Shown here piece after piece: positions 3 to 29,352 of a stretch of 32,699 nucleotides of DNA. Numbering within the stretch: the stretch's first letter is position 1; each line of letters begins with the position of its first letter. Origin of the DNA: Alistipes sp. GTDB taxonomy: Bacteria > Bacteroidota > Bacteroidia > Bacteroidales > Rikenellaceae. The notes under the pieces are model-generated. The model searched no databases. It was not told the origin of the DNA and saw nothing but the letters and a program-made list of their open reading frames with translations. The stretch spans positions 1 to 32,699 of the forward strand of contig JAFNXN010000003.1 in the NCBI GenBank assembly GCA_017379015.1. Reading direction: 5' to 3'. The translations under genes and the position numbers were made by a program.

Positions 3-1103
3 TCGGCTATCGGTCCTTACAAGGGCGGTTTGCGTTTCCACCCAGCTGTTAACCCTTCAATGTTGAAGTTCCTCGGTTTCGAGCAGACTTTCAAGAACGC
101 TTTGACTACCCTTCCTATGGGTGGTGCTAAGGGTGGCGCTGACTTCAACCCTGTTGGCAAGTCTAACGGTGAGATCATGCGTTTCTGCCAGGCATTCATG
201 CAGGAGTTGTGGAACAACATCGGCGTAGATACTGACGTTCCTGCAGGTGACGTAGGTGTTGGTGGTCGTGAGATCGGCTTCCTCAACGGTATGTATCAGA
301 AGCTTGCTCGCAAGTACCACACTGGTGTATTGACTGGTAAGGGTGAGACTTGGGGTGGTTCTATCCTTCGTCCTGAGGCTACTGGTTACGGTGCTTTGTA
401 CTTCACTGAGCACATGTTGGCTAAGGCTGGCAAGAACATCGCTGGTAAGACTGTTGCAGTTTCAGGTTTCGGTAACGTAGCTTGGGGTGCATCACAGAAG
501 GCTGTAGAGCTTGGTGCTAAGGTTGTTGCTATCTCTGGTCCAGACGGTGTTTGCGAGATCCCTGGTGGTATCACTAACGAGATGATCGACTACATGCTTG
601 AGATGCGTGCTTCTAACCGTAACAAGGTTGAGGATATGGCTACTAAGTATCCTGAGGCTTGTAAGTTCACTGCTGGTAAGAAGGCTTGGTCTGTAAAGTG
701 TGACATCGCTCTTCCTTGCGCATTCCAGAACGAGTTGAACGAGGCTGACGCTAAGGAGCTTTTGGCAAACGGCACATGGTGCGTTGCTGAGGTTTCTAAC
801 ATGGGTTGTACTCCTGAGGCTATCAAGGCATTCCAGGAGGCAGGTATCCTCTTCGCTCCAGGTAAGGCTGTTAACGCAGGTGGTGTAGCTACTTCAGGTC
901 TTGAGATGACTCAGAACTGTATGCACATCTCTTGGTCAGGTAAGGAGGTTGACGAGAAGCTTCACTTCATCATGGAGTCTATCCACGAGGCATGTGTTAA
1001 GTTCGGTCAGCAGCCAGACGGCTCTGTAAACTACGTAAAGGGTGCTAACATCGCCGGCTTTATGAAGGTTGCACAGGCTATGCTTGAGCAGGGTATCATC
1101 TAA
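3..1103 (+). CDS. gdhA: NADP-type glutamate dehydrogenase, 5'-truncated
   Basis: Hexameric glutamate dehydrogenase making glutamate from 2-oxoglutarate and ammonium in the cytoplasm. The reading frame is already open at base 3 (SAIGPYKGGLRFHP), so the start and roughly 80 residues lie upstream of the window; 366 codons remain of the usual 440-450. Visible family marks are the substrate-binding region with the catalytic lysine motif PMGGAKGGADFNP, the DVPAGDVGVGGREIGF segment, and a Rossmann nucleotide-binding turn SGFGNVAWGAS in the C-terminal half. The length and motifs fit the small-hexamer class typical of NADP-dependent assimilation; coenzyme preference is inferred from family. Codons are strongly biased (GGT, GCT, AAG, CGT), as in the glycogen gene, suggesting high expression. 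It ends with a double TAATAA and is followed at once by a structured terminator-like element. Confidence 0.96.
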   Translation, partial: SAIGPYKGGLRFHPAVNPSMLKFLGFEQTFKNALTTLPMGGAKGGADFNPVGKSNGEIMRFCQAFMQELWNNIGVDTDVPAGDVGVGGREIGFLNGMYQKLARKYHTGVLTGKGETWGGSILRPEATGYGALYFTEHMLAKAGKNIAGKTVAVSGFGNVAWGASQKAVELGAKVVAISGPDGVCEIPGGITNEMIDYMLEMRASNRNKVEDMATKYPEACKFTAGKKAWSVKCDIALPCAFQNELNEADAKELLANGTWCVAEVSNMGCTPEAIKAFQEAGILFAPGKAVNAGGVATSGLEMTQNCMHISWSGKEVDEKLHFIMESIHEACVKFGQQPDGSVNYVKGANIAGFMKVAQAMLEQGII

Positions 1104-1110
1104 TAATTTT

Positions 1111-1213
1111 CGATTTTAGAGGGCACCTTTAGCCTATCACAAACAAAACCCCACGGGCTGTACGTGAGTACTATCCCGTGGGGTTTCTTATTGCGATAAA
1201 CTAAATCTGCTCC
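1111..1213 (+). terminator. Structured 3' element copy 1 (terminator-like, covarying stem)
   Basis: About 103 bases just after gdhA. A perfect 12-base-pair stem (1146-1157 with 1175-1186, AAACCCCACGGG/CCCGTGGGGTTT) encloses a second small stem GTAC/GTAC capped by GTGA, then TTTCTTATTG. The same element, with the outer stem changed by compensating substitutions, follows the glycogen gene at 11089-11192. The position after a stop codon suggests a transcription terminator, but the conserved flanks outside the stem are more than a terminator needs. Confidence 0.75.
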
Positions 1214-1409
1214 ACTAAAATCAAAAATTAGGACAACCCTCGGAGTTTTTCTTTTACGATAGTCCACATCTCACGACTTCTGACATCAAATTTTTGGGGC
1301 TAATGTGTGTTATTGCGATAAACTAAATCTGCTCCATTAAAATCAAAAATTAGGACGAGCCTCGGAGTTTTTCTTTTACGATAGCCGGCATTTCACGTTG
1401 TCTATCATC
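1188..1409. repeat. Tandem duplication, 122-base period
   Basis: The stretch beginning TTATTGCGATAAACTAAATC at about 1188 recurs at about 1310, with the shared blocks TAAAATCAAAAATTAGGAC and CTCGGAGTTTTTCTTTTACG. Similarity is very high over the first 75 or so bases and fades towards the end of each copy. The start of the repeat is the downstream flank of the structured 3' element, so part of that element was duplicated. No coding potential. Confidence 0.85.
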
Positions 1410-6839: not shown

Positions 6840-9800
6840 ATGAGTAATGTAAATCTTACACCCAACTATTTGTTTGAGGTAAGTTGGGAGGTGTGCAATA
6901 AGGTGGGCGGCATTCACACCGTCATCGCCTCTAAAGCACCCACTGTAAAGCGTCAGCTGGACGATAAGTACATCACTATCGGTCCAGACTTCTCGCAGGA
7001 TGCTGCAAATCCCGAGTTTAAAGAGGATACCACCCTTATGGCAGCATGGCGCGAGTCGCTCTACAAGCAGGGCGTTCGCGTTCGTATTGGTCGCTGGGCT
7101 ATCAAGGGTGAGCCTATCGCAATACTTATTGACTTTAAGTCATTCTTCTCGCAGAAGGATGAGATCCTTAAGCGTCTTTGGGAGACATACCACGTAGACT
7201 CGTTGTCGGGTCAGTGGGATTATGTTGAGCCAGTGTTGTTTGGCTATGCTGCAGGTGTTGTTATCGCTTCGTTTGCCGAGAACATCGCTGTATCTGCCGA
7301 CAAGATCGTTGCCCACTTCCACGAGTGGATGGCTGCTGCTGGTTCGCTCTATCTTCGCGACAATGCTCCTTACGTGGCAACAGTATTCTCAACCCACGCT
7401 ACAGTTATGGGCCGTTGCATCGCTGGCAACCGCCTTCCACTATACAACGACCTTCACAAGTTCAATGCTGACGAGCTTGCTCGCCAGTTCAACGTTATGG
7501 CAAAGCACTCGCTCGAGAAGTCGGCAGCAACCTATGCTGATGCCTTCCTCACTGTGAGCGAGATCACTGCTAACGAGTGCCGCTACTTGCTTGGTCGCGA
7601 GGTAACACGCATCACCCCTAATGGCTTTGAGAACGACTTTGTTCCTAAGGCTGAGGAGCTTGCCGCTATTCGTGAGAACTCTCGTAAGCGTATCATCGAG
7701 GTTGCTTCGGCTACTTGGGACTATGAGTTCCGCACCGAGCCTATGATCGTGGCTACGAGTGGTCGCTATGAGTACCGCAACAAGGGTATCGACGTATTCC
7801 TCGAGTCGCTTAAGCAGCTTGCTGCATCAAACCTCGAGCGCGAGATCATCGCCGTGGTTGCAGTTCCAGCAGCATCTATGGGTGCTCGTCAGGATCTTGT
7901 GGCTCACCTCGAGAATAAGGAGGCAGCTATCGACCCATCACAGCGTCGCTACCTCACTCACTACCTTGAGAATGAGGCTTGGGATCAGGTGTGCCAGTCT
8001 GTTGATGGCAGCATCCTCTCTACCACAGCTTCTCGCGTTAAGGTTCTCTTCGTTCCTACATACCTCAATGGTCACGATGGCATCTTCAACATGCCTTACT
8101 ACAACTTGCTTGCAGGTGTTGACCTCTCGGTATTCGCATCATACTACGAGCCATGGGGTTACACTCCACTTGAGTCAGTAGCCTTCGGTGTTCCTACCGT
8201 TACTACAACCCTCGCTGGCTTCGGTCTTTGGGTTGCTAAGCACTCGTCACACGACGGTATCGACATCGTACGTCGCGACGACTATAACGAGCGTGAGGTT
8301 GTTCTTCAGATCACCGACGTTGTTAAGCACTACCTTGGCATGAGTGCCGACGAGATGGCTGAGGCACGCGCCGCAGCACAGGAGATGTCGTCGACAGCTC
8401 TCTGGAAGAAGCTCTTCAAGGAGTATATGATGGCCTACGAGGAGGCTATGGACAACTCTATCTCGCGTACTAACCGTGTCCTTATCGATGGTGGCGACCG
8501 TTCGGAGCAGATCAACTTCGTGCGCCAGCAGCTCACCTCAAATCGTCCTTCATGGCACCGTTTGATGGTTGAGAAGGGTATTCCTGAGCGTTTGAAGGCT
8601 CTTGAGGAGCTTTCGCGTAACTTGTGGTGGTGCTGGACTGCTGCTGCCCGCGATCTGTTTGAGTCGGTTGACGAGGAGCTTTGGGTAAAGGTAGACCGCA
8701 ATCCTATTGCGCTTCTCGACAAGCTCTCTACGGCACGTTGCGAGGAGCTCTGCGCTGATAAGGATTTCCTCAAGCGTATGGATGCTGTATATAAGGAGTT
8801 CACCGAGTATATGGCTGAGAAGCCATCGCCCGAGCACGCTAAGGTAGCTTACTTCTCAATGGAGTATGGTTTGCACTCGTCGCTCAAGATCTACTCTGGT
8901 GGTCTTGGTATCTTGGCTGGTGACTACCTCAAGGAGGCTTCTGACCGCAACGTACCTATGGTTGCCGTGGGTCTTTTGTATCGCTATGGCTACTTCACAC
9001 AGCGTCTTTCGGCTCAGGGTGCTCAGGAGGCTACTTACGAGGCACAGAACTTCTTTAAGCTTCCTATCTCGCCTGTACGTGACGAGTTTGGCAACTGGGT
9101 GACAACACAGGTTGCTTTGCCTGGTCGTACACTCTACGCACGTGTTTGGAAGTGCCAGGTTGGTCGTACCGACCTCTTCTTGCTCGATGCTGACTACGAG
9201 GCTAACCTCGAGGAGGATCGTCAGGTTACCTACTACCTCTACGGTGGTGACTGGGAGAATCGTCTTAAGCAGGAGATCTTGCTCGGCGTAGGTGGTATCC
9301 GTGCCCTCGTGAAGATGGGTATCAAGCAGGAGGTTTACCACTGCAATGAGGGTCATGCAGCCTTCATCGGTGTGGAGCGTATCCGCAACCTCATCGCTAA
9401 GAAGCACCTCTCGTTCTCTGAGGCTATGGAGGTTATCCGTTCGTCGTCGTTGTTCACAACACATACCCCAGTGCCAGCAGGTCACGACGCATTCCCTGAG
9501 TCGATGATCCGTCAGTATTTGTCGCACTATCCAGATGTTCTTGGCATCACCTGGGATCAGTTTATCAACTTGGGTAAGACCAACCCAAGCGATCCTAACG
9601 AGAAGTTCTCGATGTCGGTGCTTGCATGTAACCTCTCGCAGGAGGTTAACGGTGTGTCATGGCTCCACGGTGAGGTGTCTAAGGACATTCTCGGTAACAT
9701 GTGGCCAGGCTACTTCAAGAACGAGCTCCACATTGGCTATGTGACAAACGGTGTTCACTTCCCAACATGGGTTGCATCGAACCTTCGTCGCTTGTATGCT

Positions 9801-11084
9801 AAGTACTTTGGCGATGCCTTCTCGGGTCACACCTATAACATCCCTGACTGGCAGAACGTTCATAAGATCGACGATAAGGAGCTTTGGGCGGAGCGTATGA
9901 TGCTTAAGGAGTGTCTTATCAAGACCATCCGCAAGCGTTTTAGCGATCCTACACAGGTGCGTCTTCAGTCGCCACGCCAGATGGTTCAGGTTACTGAGAG
10001 CATCAAGCCTGATGTGCTTACTATCGGTTTTGCGCGTCGTTTCGCAACATATAAGCGTGCATACCTCCTCTTCACCAACCTTGAGCGTCTCTCGGCGTTG
10101 GTTAACAACAAGGAGCGTCCTGTGCAGTTCATCTTTGCTGGTAAGGCACACCCTAACGATAAGCCAGGTCAGGATCTTATCAAGCGTATCGTTGAGGTTT
10201 CGGCAATGCCAGAGTTCGTAGGCAAGATTGTCTTCTTGCAGAACTACGATATGGAGCTTGCACGTCGCATGGTTCAGGGTGTTGACGTATGGCTCAACAC
10301 TCCTACACGTCCTTTGGAGGCTTCGGGTACTTCGGGCGAGAAGTGTGTTATGAATGGTGTTATGCAGTTCTCAGTTCTCGACGGCTGGTGGGTTGAGGGC
10401 TACAAGGAGGGTGCTGGCTGGATGCTTCCTATGGAGCGCACATACGCCGACCAGCGTTTCCAGGACGAGCTCGATGCCGAGATGATCTACAACACTATCG
10501 AGGAGCAGATCGTGCCATTGTACTACGATCGCGCCGAGGATGGCGTGCCACACCGCTGGGTTAACGCTGTTAAGAAGTGTGTTGCCGACATCGCGTCGAA
10601 CTTCACCACTAACCGCATGCTTATCGACTACGAGGAGCGTTTCTACAATAAGCTTGCTGCACGTAAGCGACTTATCCTCGACAACAACTATATGATGGCT
10701 CGCGAGATCGCTCAGTGGAAGCGTAAGGTTTCTGCAGCATGGGATAACATTGCTATCCTCGATGTTAAGCGTGCCGAGATCGAGTCTGAGGCAATGTACG
10801 TAGGTAAGAAGTACCGCTTCGAGCTTACTCTCGACCTCGCAGGCTTGTCTAAGGAGGATATTGGTGCTGAGCTTGTTGTTGCTACTCAGATCGAGGCTGG
10901 TCAGGCAGCAAATGTTGTTGAGACACGCCGCCTCGATGTTGTTGCTGAGGAGGGTAACACTGTTACCTTGGCTCTCGACTACTCACCTGAGCACACCGGT
11001 ACGTTCGACGTTGCTTTGCGTGTGTTCCCAGTGAACGAGAAGTTGGAGCACCGTATGGACTTTGCGCTTGTTAAGTGGGCGTAA
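6840..11084 (+). CDS. Fused glycogen synthase (GT3) / alpha-glucan phosphorylase (GT35)
   Basis: 1414 residues. Residues 1 to about 560 are an eukaryotic-type glycogen synthase of family GT3: opening FEVSWEVCNKVGGIHTVI and the retaining glycosyltransferase pair Glu437/Glu445 in EPWGYTPLE. Residues about 582-665 match the DUF3417 cap (LEELSRNLWWCWTAA, from 588) that precedes short-type alpha-glucan phosphorylases; about 665-1300 is the phosphorylase, with the pyridoxal-phosphate lysine Lys1168 in EASGTSGEKC and the LDGWWVEGY segment. The last 100 residues look like an all-beta domain. One polypeptide therefore carries both the chain-building (sugar nucleotide dependent) and chain-degrading (phosphate dependent) activities. 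The frame is unbroken and codon usage is uniform, so a sequencing artefact is unlikely. Single-gene unit with its own promoter, leader hairpin and a structured 3' element. Both activities are inferred from motifs. Confidence 0.95.
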   Translation: MSNVNLTPNYLFEVSWEVCNKVGGIHTVIASKAPTVKRQLDDKYITIGPDFSQDAANPEFKEDTTLMAAWRESLYKQGVRVRIGRWAIKGEPIAILIDFKSFFSQKDEILKRLWETYHVDSLSGQWDYVEPVLFGYAAGVVIASFAENIAVSADKIVAHFHEWMAAAGSLYLRDNAPYVATVFSTHATVMGRCIAGNRLPLYNDLHKFNADELARQFNVMAKHSLEKSAATYADAFLTVSEITANECRYLLGREVTRITPNGFENDFVPKAEELAAIRENSRKRIIEVASATWDYEFRTEPMIVATSGRYEYRNKGIDVFLESLKQLAASNLEREIIAVVAVPAASMGARQDLVAHLENKEAAIDPSQRRYLTHYLENEAWDQVCQSVDGSILSTTASRVKVLFVPTYLNGHDGIFNMPYYNLLAGVDLSVFASYYEPWGYTPLESVAFGVPTVTTTLAGFGLWVAKHSSHDGIDIVRRDDYNEREVVLQITDVVKHYLGMSADEMAEARAAAQEMSSTALWKKLFKEYMMAYEEAMDNSISRTNRVLIDGGDRSEQINFVRQQLTSNRPSWHRLMVEKGIPERLKALEELSRNLWWCWTAAARDLFESVDEELWVKVDRNPIALLDKLSTARCEELCADKDFLKRMDAVYKEFTEYMAEKPSPEHAKVAYFSMEYGLHSSLKIYSGGLGILAGDYLKEASDRNVPMVAVGLLYRYGYFTQRLSAQGAQEATYEAQNFFKLPISPVRDEFGNWVTTQVALPGRTLYARVWKCQVGRTDLFLLDADYEANLEEDRQVTYYLYGGDWENRLKQEILLGVGGIRALVKMGIKQEVYHCNEGHAAFIGVERIRNLIAKKHLSFSEAMEVIRSSSLFTTHTPVPAGHDAFPESMIRQYLSHYPDVLGITWDQFINLGKTNPSDPNEKFSMSVLACNLSQEVNGVSWLHGEVSKDILGNMWPGYFKNELHIGYVTNGVHFPTWVASNLRRLYAKYFGDAFSGHTYNIPDWQNVHKIDDKELWAERMMLKECLIKTIRKRFSDPTQVRLQSPRQMVQVTESIKPDVLTIGFARRFATYKRAYLLFTNLERLSALVNNKERPVQFIFAGKAHPNDKPGQDLIKRIVEVSAMPEFVGKIVFLQNYDMELARRMVQGVDVWLNTPTRPLEASGTSGEKCVMNGVMQFSVLDGWWVEGYKEGAGWMLPMERTYADQRFQDELDAEMIYNTIEEQIVPLYYDRAEDGVPHRWVNAVKKCVADIASNFTTNRMLIDYEERFYNKLAARKRLILDNNYMMAREIAQWKRKVSAAWDNIAILDVKRAEIESEAMYVGKKYRFELTLDLAGLSKEDIGAELVVATQIEAGQAANVVETRRLDVVAEEGNTVTLALDYSPEHTGTFDVALRVFPVNEKLEHRMDFALVKWA

Positions 11085-11088
11085 TTTC

Positions 11089-11192
11089 CGATTTTATAGG
11101 GCATCTTTAGCCCATCCCAAACAAAATCCCGAAGGCTGTACGCTGAGTACTATCCTTCGGGATTTCTTATTGCGATAGACTAAATCTGCACC
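11089..11192 (+). terminator. Structured 3' element copy 2 (terminator-like, covarying stem)
   Basis: Second copy of the element after gdhA, starting 5 bases after the stop codon. Outer stem 11124-11135 with 11154-11165 (AAATCCCGAAGG/CCTTCGGGATTT) is again perfect over 12 pairs although four pairs differ from copy 1. The inner stem GTAC/GTAC is kept, with loop GCTGA, and the downstream TTTCTTATTGCGATA and CTAAATCTGC are shared. Confidence 0.75.
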
Positions 11193-11200
11193 TCCTCATC

Positions 11201-11334
11201 GTCATTGCGAGAGCCGTTAGGCTCGTGGCAATCTCCCCCTCATCGTCATTGCGAGGCTGCTAAGCCGTGGCAATCTCATCCTAAGCGCGCTAACAAGGAG
11301 ATTCCCACGGTCGCTAAAGCTCCCTCGGAATGAC
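11201..11334. repeat. REP-like palindromic repeats (half plus full copy)
   Basis: A half copy GTCATTGCGAG...CGTGGCAATCTC (11201-11236) is followed by a full copy (11245-11334). In the full copy the left ends GTCATTGCGAGG and CGTGGCAATCTC are imperfect inverted repeats of the right ends CCTCGGAATGAC and GAGATTCCCACG, one mismatch each. The same design recurs at 26086-26179 and half of it at 1447-1483. This is a short non-autonomous REP/MITE-type repeat; no transposase lies in the window. Confidence 0.8.
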
Positions 11335-11415
11335 GAGCAGTCTGCTCTCTCCCTCTCGTCTCTCTCGTCCCTCTCGTCTCTCTCGTCTCTCTCGTCCCTG
11401 TCCTCTCTCTCGTTT
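11335..11415. repeat. CT-rich low-complexity repeat
   Basis: Imperfect short repeats of the type CTCTCGT(C/T)CCT, about ten units, with irregular spacing. No spacer structure as in CRISPR. Possibly unstable in length. Confidence 0.7.
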
Positions 11416-11488
11416 CTTTGCTAGTCAGAACAAAAAAAATGCGCCCGGCACAAGCCGAGCGCAAAAGATATTAGATTGTATTAAGTTA

Positions 11489-26085: not shown

Positions 26086-26179
26086 GTCATTGCGAGGCTT
26101 GGCACAAGCCGTGGCAATCTCCTTCGAGGCGCGCTAATGAGGGAGATTCCCACGCTCGCCTCAGCTCGCTCGGAATGAC
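26086..26179. repeat. REP-like palindromic repeat, full copy
   Basis: Left ends GTCATTGCGAGG and CGTGGCAATCTC, right ends GAGATTCCCACG and CTCGGAATGAC, same design as at 11245-11334. The middle has GGCGCGCTAATGAGG compared with AGCGCGCTAACAAGG in the other copy. Confidence 0.8.
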
Positions 26180-29179: not shown

Positions 29180-29352
29180 TTTGATTAGGGAATTTAAGGA
29201 GTGTAGAGAGTGTAAGGGGAGTAGAGAGAGTCGGGAAAAAGGAAAAATCACTAAATTCCCTAAATTCATTAAACTCACTAAATTCACAAACCTCCCTAAC
29301 CCCCCCCCACAACAGAGCAAAAACAAAACAAGAACAAAATATATATTAGAAA
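29180..29352. other. Low-complexity rimP-nusA spacer
   Basis: 173 bases, long for this operon. Purine-rich units (GGAGTGTAGAGAGTG) on the left face pyrimidine-rich units (CTAAATTCC, ATTAAACTC, ACTAAATTC) on the right. A perfect 12-base inverted repeat, TTAGGGAATTTA (29185-29196) with TAAATTCCCTAA (29252-29263), could form a stem of the transcript. A run of nine C occurs at 29300-29308. Confidence 0.75.

Follow-up and report, generated by a model that had tools for sequence, protein, structure and literature searches.

A number of interspersed repeats with terminator-like parts have been described in bacteria. SPRITE of Streptococcus pneumoniae is an interspersed repeat that resembles a Rho-independent terminator near gene 3' ends, for which co-option has been suggested (PMC3049150). 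It has an 18-bp stem with a T-rich tract, AAAA/TTTT ends and 30 copies, is enriched between convergent genes and is present in close relatives only. REP, BIME and REPIN sequences, which occur with TnpA_REP (RAYT), are palindromic, intergenic and high in copy number, and some E. coli REPs lie 15 nt or less from a stop codon (PMC12306157; on the same group see also PMC8266576 and PMC2817692). The MITE-type repeats RUP, BOX and ERIC are 100-200 bp long, non-coding, intergenic and clustered, with paired terminal inverted repeats (PMC3049150, PMC10969869; on the same group see also PMC2759123). In Neisseria, inverted pairs of the uptake sequence downstream of genes are used as terminators, according to a passage in PMC3049150.

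The window, which is the whole stretch of Alistipes DNA that was analysed (32,699 nucleotides), contains two copies of an element that can be compared with these systems. The two copies probably belong to a spreading, terminator-bearing family of palindromic repeats of about 150 bp that is anchored at stop codons. SPRITE appears to be the closest described kind, since both are terminator-like interspersed repeats near gene 3' ends and limited to close relatives. In contrast to SPRITE, the Alistipes element has a nested long palindrome, covarying outer arms, an exact register to the stop codon, tens of copies, no clear convergent enrichment and an antisense wobble bias. REPs are likewise palindromic, intergenic and high in copy number, and some in E. 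coli are near stops; the Alistipes element is longer, its stems covary and it keeps mainly to one orientation. The RAYT-type Y1 transposase (PF01797, E 0.001) was found in none of 61 genus genomes, compared with five of 14 control genomes, and a REP/REPIN system with RAYT was therefore rejected. The element family is short, non-coding and multicopy with terminal inverted repeats, as MITEs are, and it shares size, intergenic location and clustering with RUP, BOX and ERIC. However, no target duplication was seen for it by eye and no parent transposon was found in a search that covered the Y1 transposase family, and its orientation and stop register are largely fixed. A TA-duplicating insertion was rejected because the 3' flank after AAAT varies. 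Like the Neisseria uptake pairs of the passage cited above, the elements are repeated inverted pairs downstream of genes, probably used as terminators. However, nearly all occurrences of the apex 9-mer GTACTATCC in the sister species fall in elements (G017; 64 occurrences, 61 of them exact apices), less so in the window's own genome (G000; 11 of 18), and a DNA uptake sequence was rejected because of the confinement in G017.

Reverse transcriptase (RVT_1) is present in 20 of the 61 genomes. Among the 19 copy-rich genomes, those with at least 39 model hits, only six have it; it is absent from 13, including G000, G017 and G051. These 19 are 63-98% complete; as the genomes are drafts, the absence of the transposase, the integrase or the reverse transcriptase from any single one is weak evidence. 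Mobilisation by a reverse transcriptase was rejected because of the six in 19. A literature search, mainly outside subscription papers, turned up no such element described for Alistipes or Rikenellaceae.

Integron attC sites are hairpins directly behind an ORF, in a fixed orientation. Their bottom strand folds, their structure is kept while the sequence varies, and their terminal core sites are RYYYAAC...GTTRRRY. The Alistipes element shares the position directly behind an ORF, the fixed orientation, the better folding of the bottom strand and the preference for structure over sequence. However, it ends GTT...AAC rather than AAC...GTT, and it is located behind dispersed housekeeping genes. Integron integrase (TIGR02249) gave partial matches in all 61 genomes and a match over the cut-off in none. 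An attC site was rejected for want of such an integrase and of the terminal core sites. A known Rfam family was also rejected, with no gathering-score match to Rfam 15 in the window and none up to E 1 in six copy-bearing loci. Compared with known mobile palindromic repeats that contain terminator-like parts, two features are unusual: the register with the stop codon and the preference for folding of the antisense strand.

Architecture of the element and its two copies in the window

The following features of the window are referred to below.

3..1103, plus strand: gdhA (glutamate dehydrogenase), host of copy 1; its 5' end is beyond the window
~1104..1230, plus strand: element copy 1 in full, an imperfect palindrome that follows the gdhA stop codon (1101-1103) directly, from the fold and the covariance-model match
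1146..1186, plus strand: core hairpin P3 of copy 1, stem 1146-1157/1175-1186, internal loop CT 1158-1159 / TAT 1172-1174, apical GTAC 1160-1163/1168-1171
1184..1192, plus strand: T-rich TTTCTTATT at the base of P3 in copy 1, a putative terminator U-tract
1188..1409 (or from 1183), plus strand: two probable tandem remnants of the 3' halves of further elements, behind copy 1 (a 105-nt direct repeat, 87%, spacing 122)
6840..11084, plus strand: alpha-glucan phosphorylase gene (TIGR02094), host of copy 2
11082..11192, plus strand: element copy 2, which starts with the host's stop codon TAA (11082-11084) and has lost its outermost 3' arm
11124..11165, plus strand: core hairpin P3 of copy 2, with four compensated pairs

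The extra N-terminal part of the alpha-glucan phosphorylase gene product is presumably a glycosyltransferase. The initial annotation had placed two almost identical copies of about 103 bases at 1111-1213 and 11089-11192, shortly after the stop codons of these two genes. Both copies are present there, and the full 103 bases align by BLAST. At 86% identity the wording was slightly strong, and the elements are longer than 103 bases. Copy 1 is indeed directly behind the gdhA stop; copy 2 starts at the stop itself. The covariance model matches 1096-1242 with 103.4 bits and 11074-11219 with 73.2 bits. The 12-pair stem reads AAACCCCACGGG/CCCGTGGGGTTT in copy 1 and AAATCCCGAAGG/CCTTCGGGATTT in copy 2 (11124-11135/11154-11165), and the reported four differences, each with its compensating change, were all borne out. 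The inner GTAC/GTAC and the CT/TAT loop are the same in both window copies, as had been said. The window contains two occurrences of the apex pattern GGCTGTAC-N2..8-GTACTATCC, compared with 0.00 expected from 100 shuffles. Each copy with its surroundings folds as one long hairpin, at -55.1 kcal/mol (z -8.2 vs shuffles) for copy 1 and -43.6 kcal/mol (z -5.8) for copy 2.

Each element is one imperfect nested hairpin of 110-150 nt with five covarying helices. It is in the orientation of the gene, and in most copies its start is fused to the stop codon or just behind it. A plain terminator, it had been argued, would not need the 35 conserved bases before it and the 27 after it. The conservation is real; these are not separate flanks, however, but the outer arms of one palindrome, conserved because they pair with each other. 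The claim of a conserved, covarying structure held in an alignment of 70 sequences (A2), made up of the two window copies together with 68 of the 83 others that were eligible, and scored on a structure of 43 pairs written by hand. In this alignment 90.8% of cells are paired, compared with 71.5% when shuffled and 42.8-49.4% when slid. Since the 15 eligible copies left out by eye were mostly truncated or had no clear arms, this value describes mostly intact copies. The covariation score is 0.457 (0.136 shuffled, 0.055-0.087 slid), and changes on both sides are found at 32 pairs (26.0 shuffled) and in 510 cells (146.5 shuffled). The P3 helix is 91.6% paired. In the outermost helix, which has the stop codon as its edge, 93.1% are paired, and nine of nine pairs show changes on both sides. 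Six of the 43 pairs are constant by construction, because the loci of A2 were fetched by the exact apex pattern. Independent support for the apical helix comes from the gdhA element of G051, which has GTAG/CTAC in place of GTAC/GTAC.

The core stem is A-rich on one side and T-rich on the other, with a recurrent asymmetric internal loop near the apex. By eye, the common element ends are ATTTSTTGTGATAAG...CTTCTGACAASAAAT. Other subtypes, with internal loops read by eye as AC/TA, CA/AG and AA/GT, share the outer arms and are often second in arrays. The stop-codon position looks as if it prefers one apex subtype. Truncation, considered as a possible mark of reverse transcription, is seen at the 5' side in some copies and at the 3' side in others.

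The second elements of the arrays in the sister species (L262-L317) often carry, by eye, the apex subtypes GGGACGTAC/GTACTACCC and GAGCAGTAC/GTACAGCCC. Another palindromic repeat (GTCATTGCGAGG...CCGTGGCAATCTC), apparently unrelated, is intergenic in the window at 1447-1483, 11203-11335 and 26086-26178, and stands closely 3' of the truncated copy 2. Tandem arrays with a 9-base unit are located at 11350-11421 and 29244-29297, and similar short repeats are also found behind many elements of the sister species.

Copy number, placement at stop codons and host genes

A covariance-model search had been proposed for collecting copies in relatives, and it finds many; the element is dispersed, as claimed. 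There are 33 copies in 796 kb of the window's own genome and 79 in 724 kb of the sister species. BLAST in the own genome gives 13 copies with the apex stem, the CT/TAT loop and GTAC-loop-GTAC, the loop being CT (once TT) and TAT (once AAT), along with others that have different apices. The exact-apex pattern is present in 34 of the 61 genus genomes, with 0 to 77 copies each, and a reversed control pattern in none of them. Covariance model R1 places elements in 39 of 61 at E 1e-6, with 0 to at least 50 per genome when at most 50 candidates were scored. Copy number is thus patchy among genus genomes, and tandem arrays occur. A scan of named genomes with the exact apex gave at least 119 loci (L062-L180). 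Among the matches listed, 109 are from Alistipes/Rikenellaceae, mostly from ruminant hindgut samples, and 10 from other groups, which are taken as chance. These repeats of about 150 bp are a family of Alistipes/Rikenellaceae relatives that come mostly from the guts of ruminants. Among 393 genomes drawn from the order, four of them from other genera of the same family, just two, the own genome and G219, have the exact apex; this search covered the exact apex and would miss other subtypes. G219 belongs to another family of the order and has two identical matches (G219:C42:52119 and G219:C43:66325). By estimate these are near chance, and they are either chance or a transferred element.

The placement of the copies was determined with gene calls from a simple longest-ORF routine. 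The upstream gene is on the same strand for 101 of 105 covariance-model elements with a known upstream gene (29 of 30 in the own genome, 72 of 75 in the sister species). One exact register to the stop is found in 55 of these 101 (12 of 29 and 43 of 72). The stop is TAA in 52 of the 55, the gene's TAA thus being the edge of the element. Starts at 22 nt or less from the stop were found for 18 of 29 elements in the own genome and 59 of 68 in the sister species, compared with 3.0 and 9.7 expected under uniform placement in the same gaps; such counts were reached in none of 200,000 simulations. More than 60 nt from the stop are nine of 29 and eight of 72, respectively. Element-bearing genes end in TAA in 66 of 72 cases in the sister species and 22 of 29 in the own genome, compared with 351 of 555 and 317 of 562 for genes of the same stretches, a baseline called with a slightly different ORF threshold. 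In five loci (L089, L094, L097, L106, L126) the reading frame of the gene runs on into the element and ends at the element's TGA.

The named relatives agree. Their placement count used 80 of the at least 119 loci and, after seven of the 10 other-group loci were dropped, 73 loci. Among 83 copies, 62 follow a same-strand gene and four an opposite-strand gene, 10 are in predicted ORFs and seven have no upstream gene on the piece, so that of 66 intergenic copies whose upstream gene is known, 62 follow it on the same strand. Copies in predicted ORFs, these 10 as well as two and three in the own genome and the sister species, are outside the same-strand counts. The apex begins 40-63 nt behind the stop in 50 of the 62. 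Convergent neighbours show no clear enrichment (38 of 65 vs 80 of 153, and 14 of 28 vs 72 of 164), and enrichment between convergent genes was rejected because an initial excess of 33 vs 21 shrank against a gap-matched baseline.

There are 86 host proteins near a stop-anchored element. Of 20 that were scanned, 14 match an NCBIfam model at E 1e-20, several of them scoring lower than the curated cut-off. The named hosts are GdhA, alpha-glucan phosphorylase, an RluF/RsuA-type synthase, pyruvate:ferredoxin oxidoreductase, GcvH, ThiL, EF-Ts, aldolase, a Dcp-like peptidase, ribosome recycling factor, a CdsZ-like protein, a Rid protein, RlmH and GAPDH. The initial annotation had suggested a dispersed RNA element on the mRNAs of central nitrogen and carbon genes. 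The dispersed 3'-end element is there; the specificity is not, and a carbon/nitrogen regulon was rejected because these 14 are general housekeeping genes of mixed function.

Orthologous gene ends and homogenisation within genomes

Copies are homogenised within genomes, and at orthologous gene ends the element interchanges with ordinary terminators, the protein C-termini being mostly unchanged. The gdhA 3' ends were read in 30 genomes. Where GdhA is at least 92% identical, nine of nine have an element or a diverged element, and several subtypes are represented; G011 and G025, which also reach this identity, are partial and outside the nine. Among 21 more distant orthologues, G003 has a clear element and G043 perhaps a diverged one, and most have an ordinary hairpin terminator. 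For the sister species, 19 of its 61 exact-apex elements aligned to the stretches of the own genome, of which one is not a gene end. By reading, the own genome has an element of any subtype at nine of these 18 orthologous ends and an ordinary terminator or none at the other nine.

Nine ends were checked for how homology breaks off (eight of the latter nine and one in the reverse direction). Homology between the two genomes ends about at the stop codon, and resumes close by at one of them (L306/L254). No empty sites comparable across genomes were found at the nine gene ends, and no constant flanking duplication was seen by eye. Behind the elements of the sister species there is no clear trace of the own genome's 3' region at nine ends; the best two trace scores were reached by seven and 11 of 200 shuffles. 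Simple insertion ahead of the old terminator is thus unsupported, which slightly weakens the preferred reading of a spreading repeat, and the missing trace may reflect replacement or simply divergence. In L271 and L305 the element supplies the last codons of the sister species' protein and the TGA behind them.

In the sister species the best match of an element is a paralogue in 60 of 60 (mean 0.94 vs 0.80 across genomes), a comparison that favours paralogues by number. In the own genome it is a paralogue in 10 of 11, though only 10 other elements there compete with 60 of the sister species. Six of these 11 have a paralogue at 0.94-0.985; the other five, including both window copies, are at 0.71-0.83, and for each of the two window copies the closest paralogue is the other one, at only 0.79. 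Two orthologous element pairs are at 0.79 and 0.81. Since paralogues are usually more alike than copies across genomes, and since orthologous ends differ, the pattern is one of spread or homogenisation within genomes and not of simple vertical descent. The alternative that had been raised against a functional RNA, a mobile repeat, is also largely supported, given the homogenisation of copies within genomes and their differences between orthologous sites.

Termination and strand asymmetry

A stable hairpin followed by a T-rich stretch is located 3' of the gene, as in intrinsic terminators, and it stands where relatives keep ordinary terminators. The core hairpin therefore likely terminates transcription of the upstream gene. 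The T-tract TTCTTTT is modest. The T fraction beside P3 is 0.53 and at the antisense equivalent 0.52 (233 elements), and it is 0.54-0.55 after ordinary hairpins, at places that are not exactly comparable. The T content is thus equal in both directions. Because the outer arms are beyond the T-tract, a terminated transcript would exclude the covarying 3' arms, and a pure terminator does not explain them. That the elements are ordinary intrinsic terminators grown alike by convergence, with no element at all, is very improbable. The T-tract and stem, and the ordinary terminators at the same sites in relatives, would suit it; the shared architecture with covarying arms outside the terminator, the stop register, the near-identical paralogues and a strand bias opposite to that of ordinary terminators argue against it.

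This bias is seen in the mismatches. On the gene strand, isolated arm mismatches are A.C in 521 cases and G.U in 69, with 609 others, in 194 distinct elements. A larger set of 233 has 597 A.C/C.A, 94 G.U/U.G and 728 others, or 249 vs 60 when weighted for relatedness; it includes the other-group loci L144, L150 and L157, and the set of 194 omits L142-L180. The antisense strand folds better because A.C mismatches of the gene strand become wobble pairs there. With RNAfold it is more stable in 181 of 194 elements and in 211 of 233 of the larger set (mean 12 kcal/mol). Copy 1 folds at -70.4 kcal/mol antisense vs -53.8 sense, and copy 2 at -50.7 vs -34.5. Ordinary terminator regions of the same stretches are the reverse on average, with antisense better in only 36 of 134 and 34 of 98, and their mismatches are 25 G.U vs 11 A.C in the own genome and 15 vs 12 in the sister species. 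The folded antisense strand would thus appear to be the selected or the moving form.

These results bear on two readings in which a functional RNA is kept. A cis-regulatory RNA in the 3' UTR, acting on the sense strand, stabilising or regulating the message and held by selection gene by gene, would require no mobility. Strong covariation, recurrent internal loops, sense orientation, a largely constant distance to the stop and the lack of insertion traces ahead of old terminators are all consistent with it. It is nevertheless improbable, as the sense mismatches are mostly A.C, which cannot pair in RNA, with G.U on the other strand, a copy usually resembles others of its own genome more closely than those of another genome, orthologous ends may carry an ordinary terminator instead and the host genes are of mixed function. 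In the second reading the functional RNA is made from the antisense strand, as an antisense or convergent transcript with its 3' end at the host stop, for example a barrier to antisense transcription entering the gene. The wobble pairs and better folding of that strand, found also in 31 of 39 model matches above 55 bits that lack the exact apex, argue for it; yet for 41 of 93 elements the downstream gene lies on the sense strand, so that no antisense transcript is obvious, and we regard this reading as unlikely.

In the preferred reading, a spreading repeat family, copies would arrive by insertion or by replacement (gene conversion). The core hairpin would end the transcription of the upstream gene, and the element could therefore replace the native terminator without cost. 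It would also supply its own stops, TAA at the edge and TGA in TTGTGATAA, and tolerance at gene ends may be explained by this terminator and these stops. With less certainty, it may be the folded antisense strand on which dissemination works, since the wobble pairs and the better folding are found there. A bolder form of this reading, which is possible though somewhat doubtful, is a stop-codon-targeting mobile element that is copied via the folded antisense (template) strand by an enzyme other than RAYT, integron integrase or reverse transcriptase. Its edge would be joined base-exactly to the stop, the gene would receive a new stop and terminator, and an Alistipes lineage would have exchanged a sizeable share of its terminators. 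If antisense folding is the moving form, it points to an undescribed route of single-strand mobilisation or conversion. In the preferred reading, gene terminators turn over by the spread of a structured repeat, often with base precision relative to the stop codon, and the elements and ordinary terminators form a natural set of interchangeable terminators. Many 3' regions of these gut bacteria can be annotated with covariance model R1.

The asymmetry is not even along the palindrome. A column-based count on A2 is weaker, with 143 A.C and 65 G.U. By helix, this count gives no bias in the A/T-tract helix (10 vs 11) and a small one in P1 (17 vs 12). The core hairpin alone is nearly balanced (-33.1 vs -34.8), with the antisense strand better in 154 elements and worse in 77.
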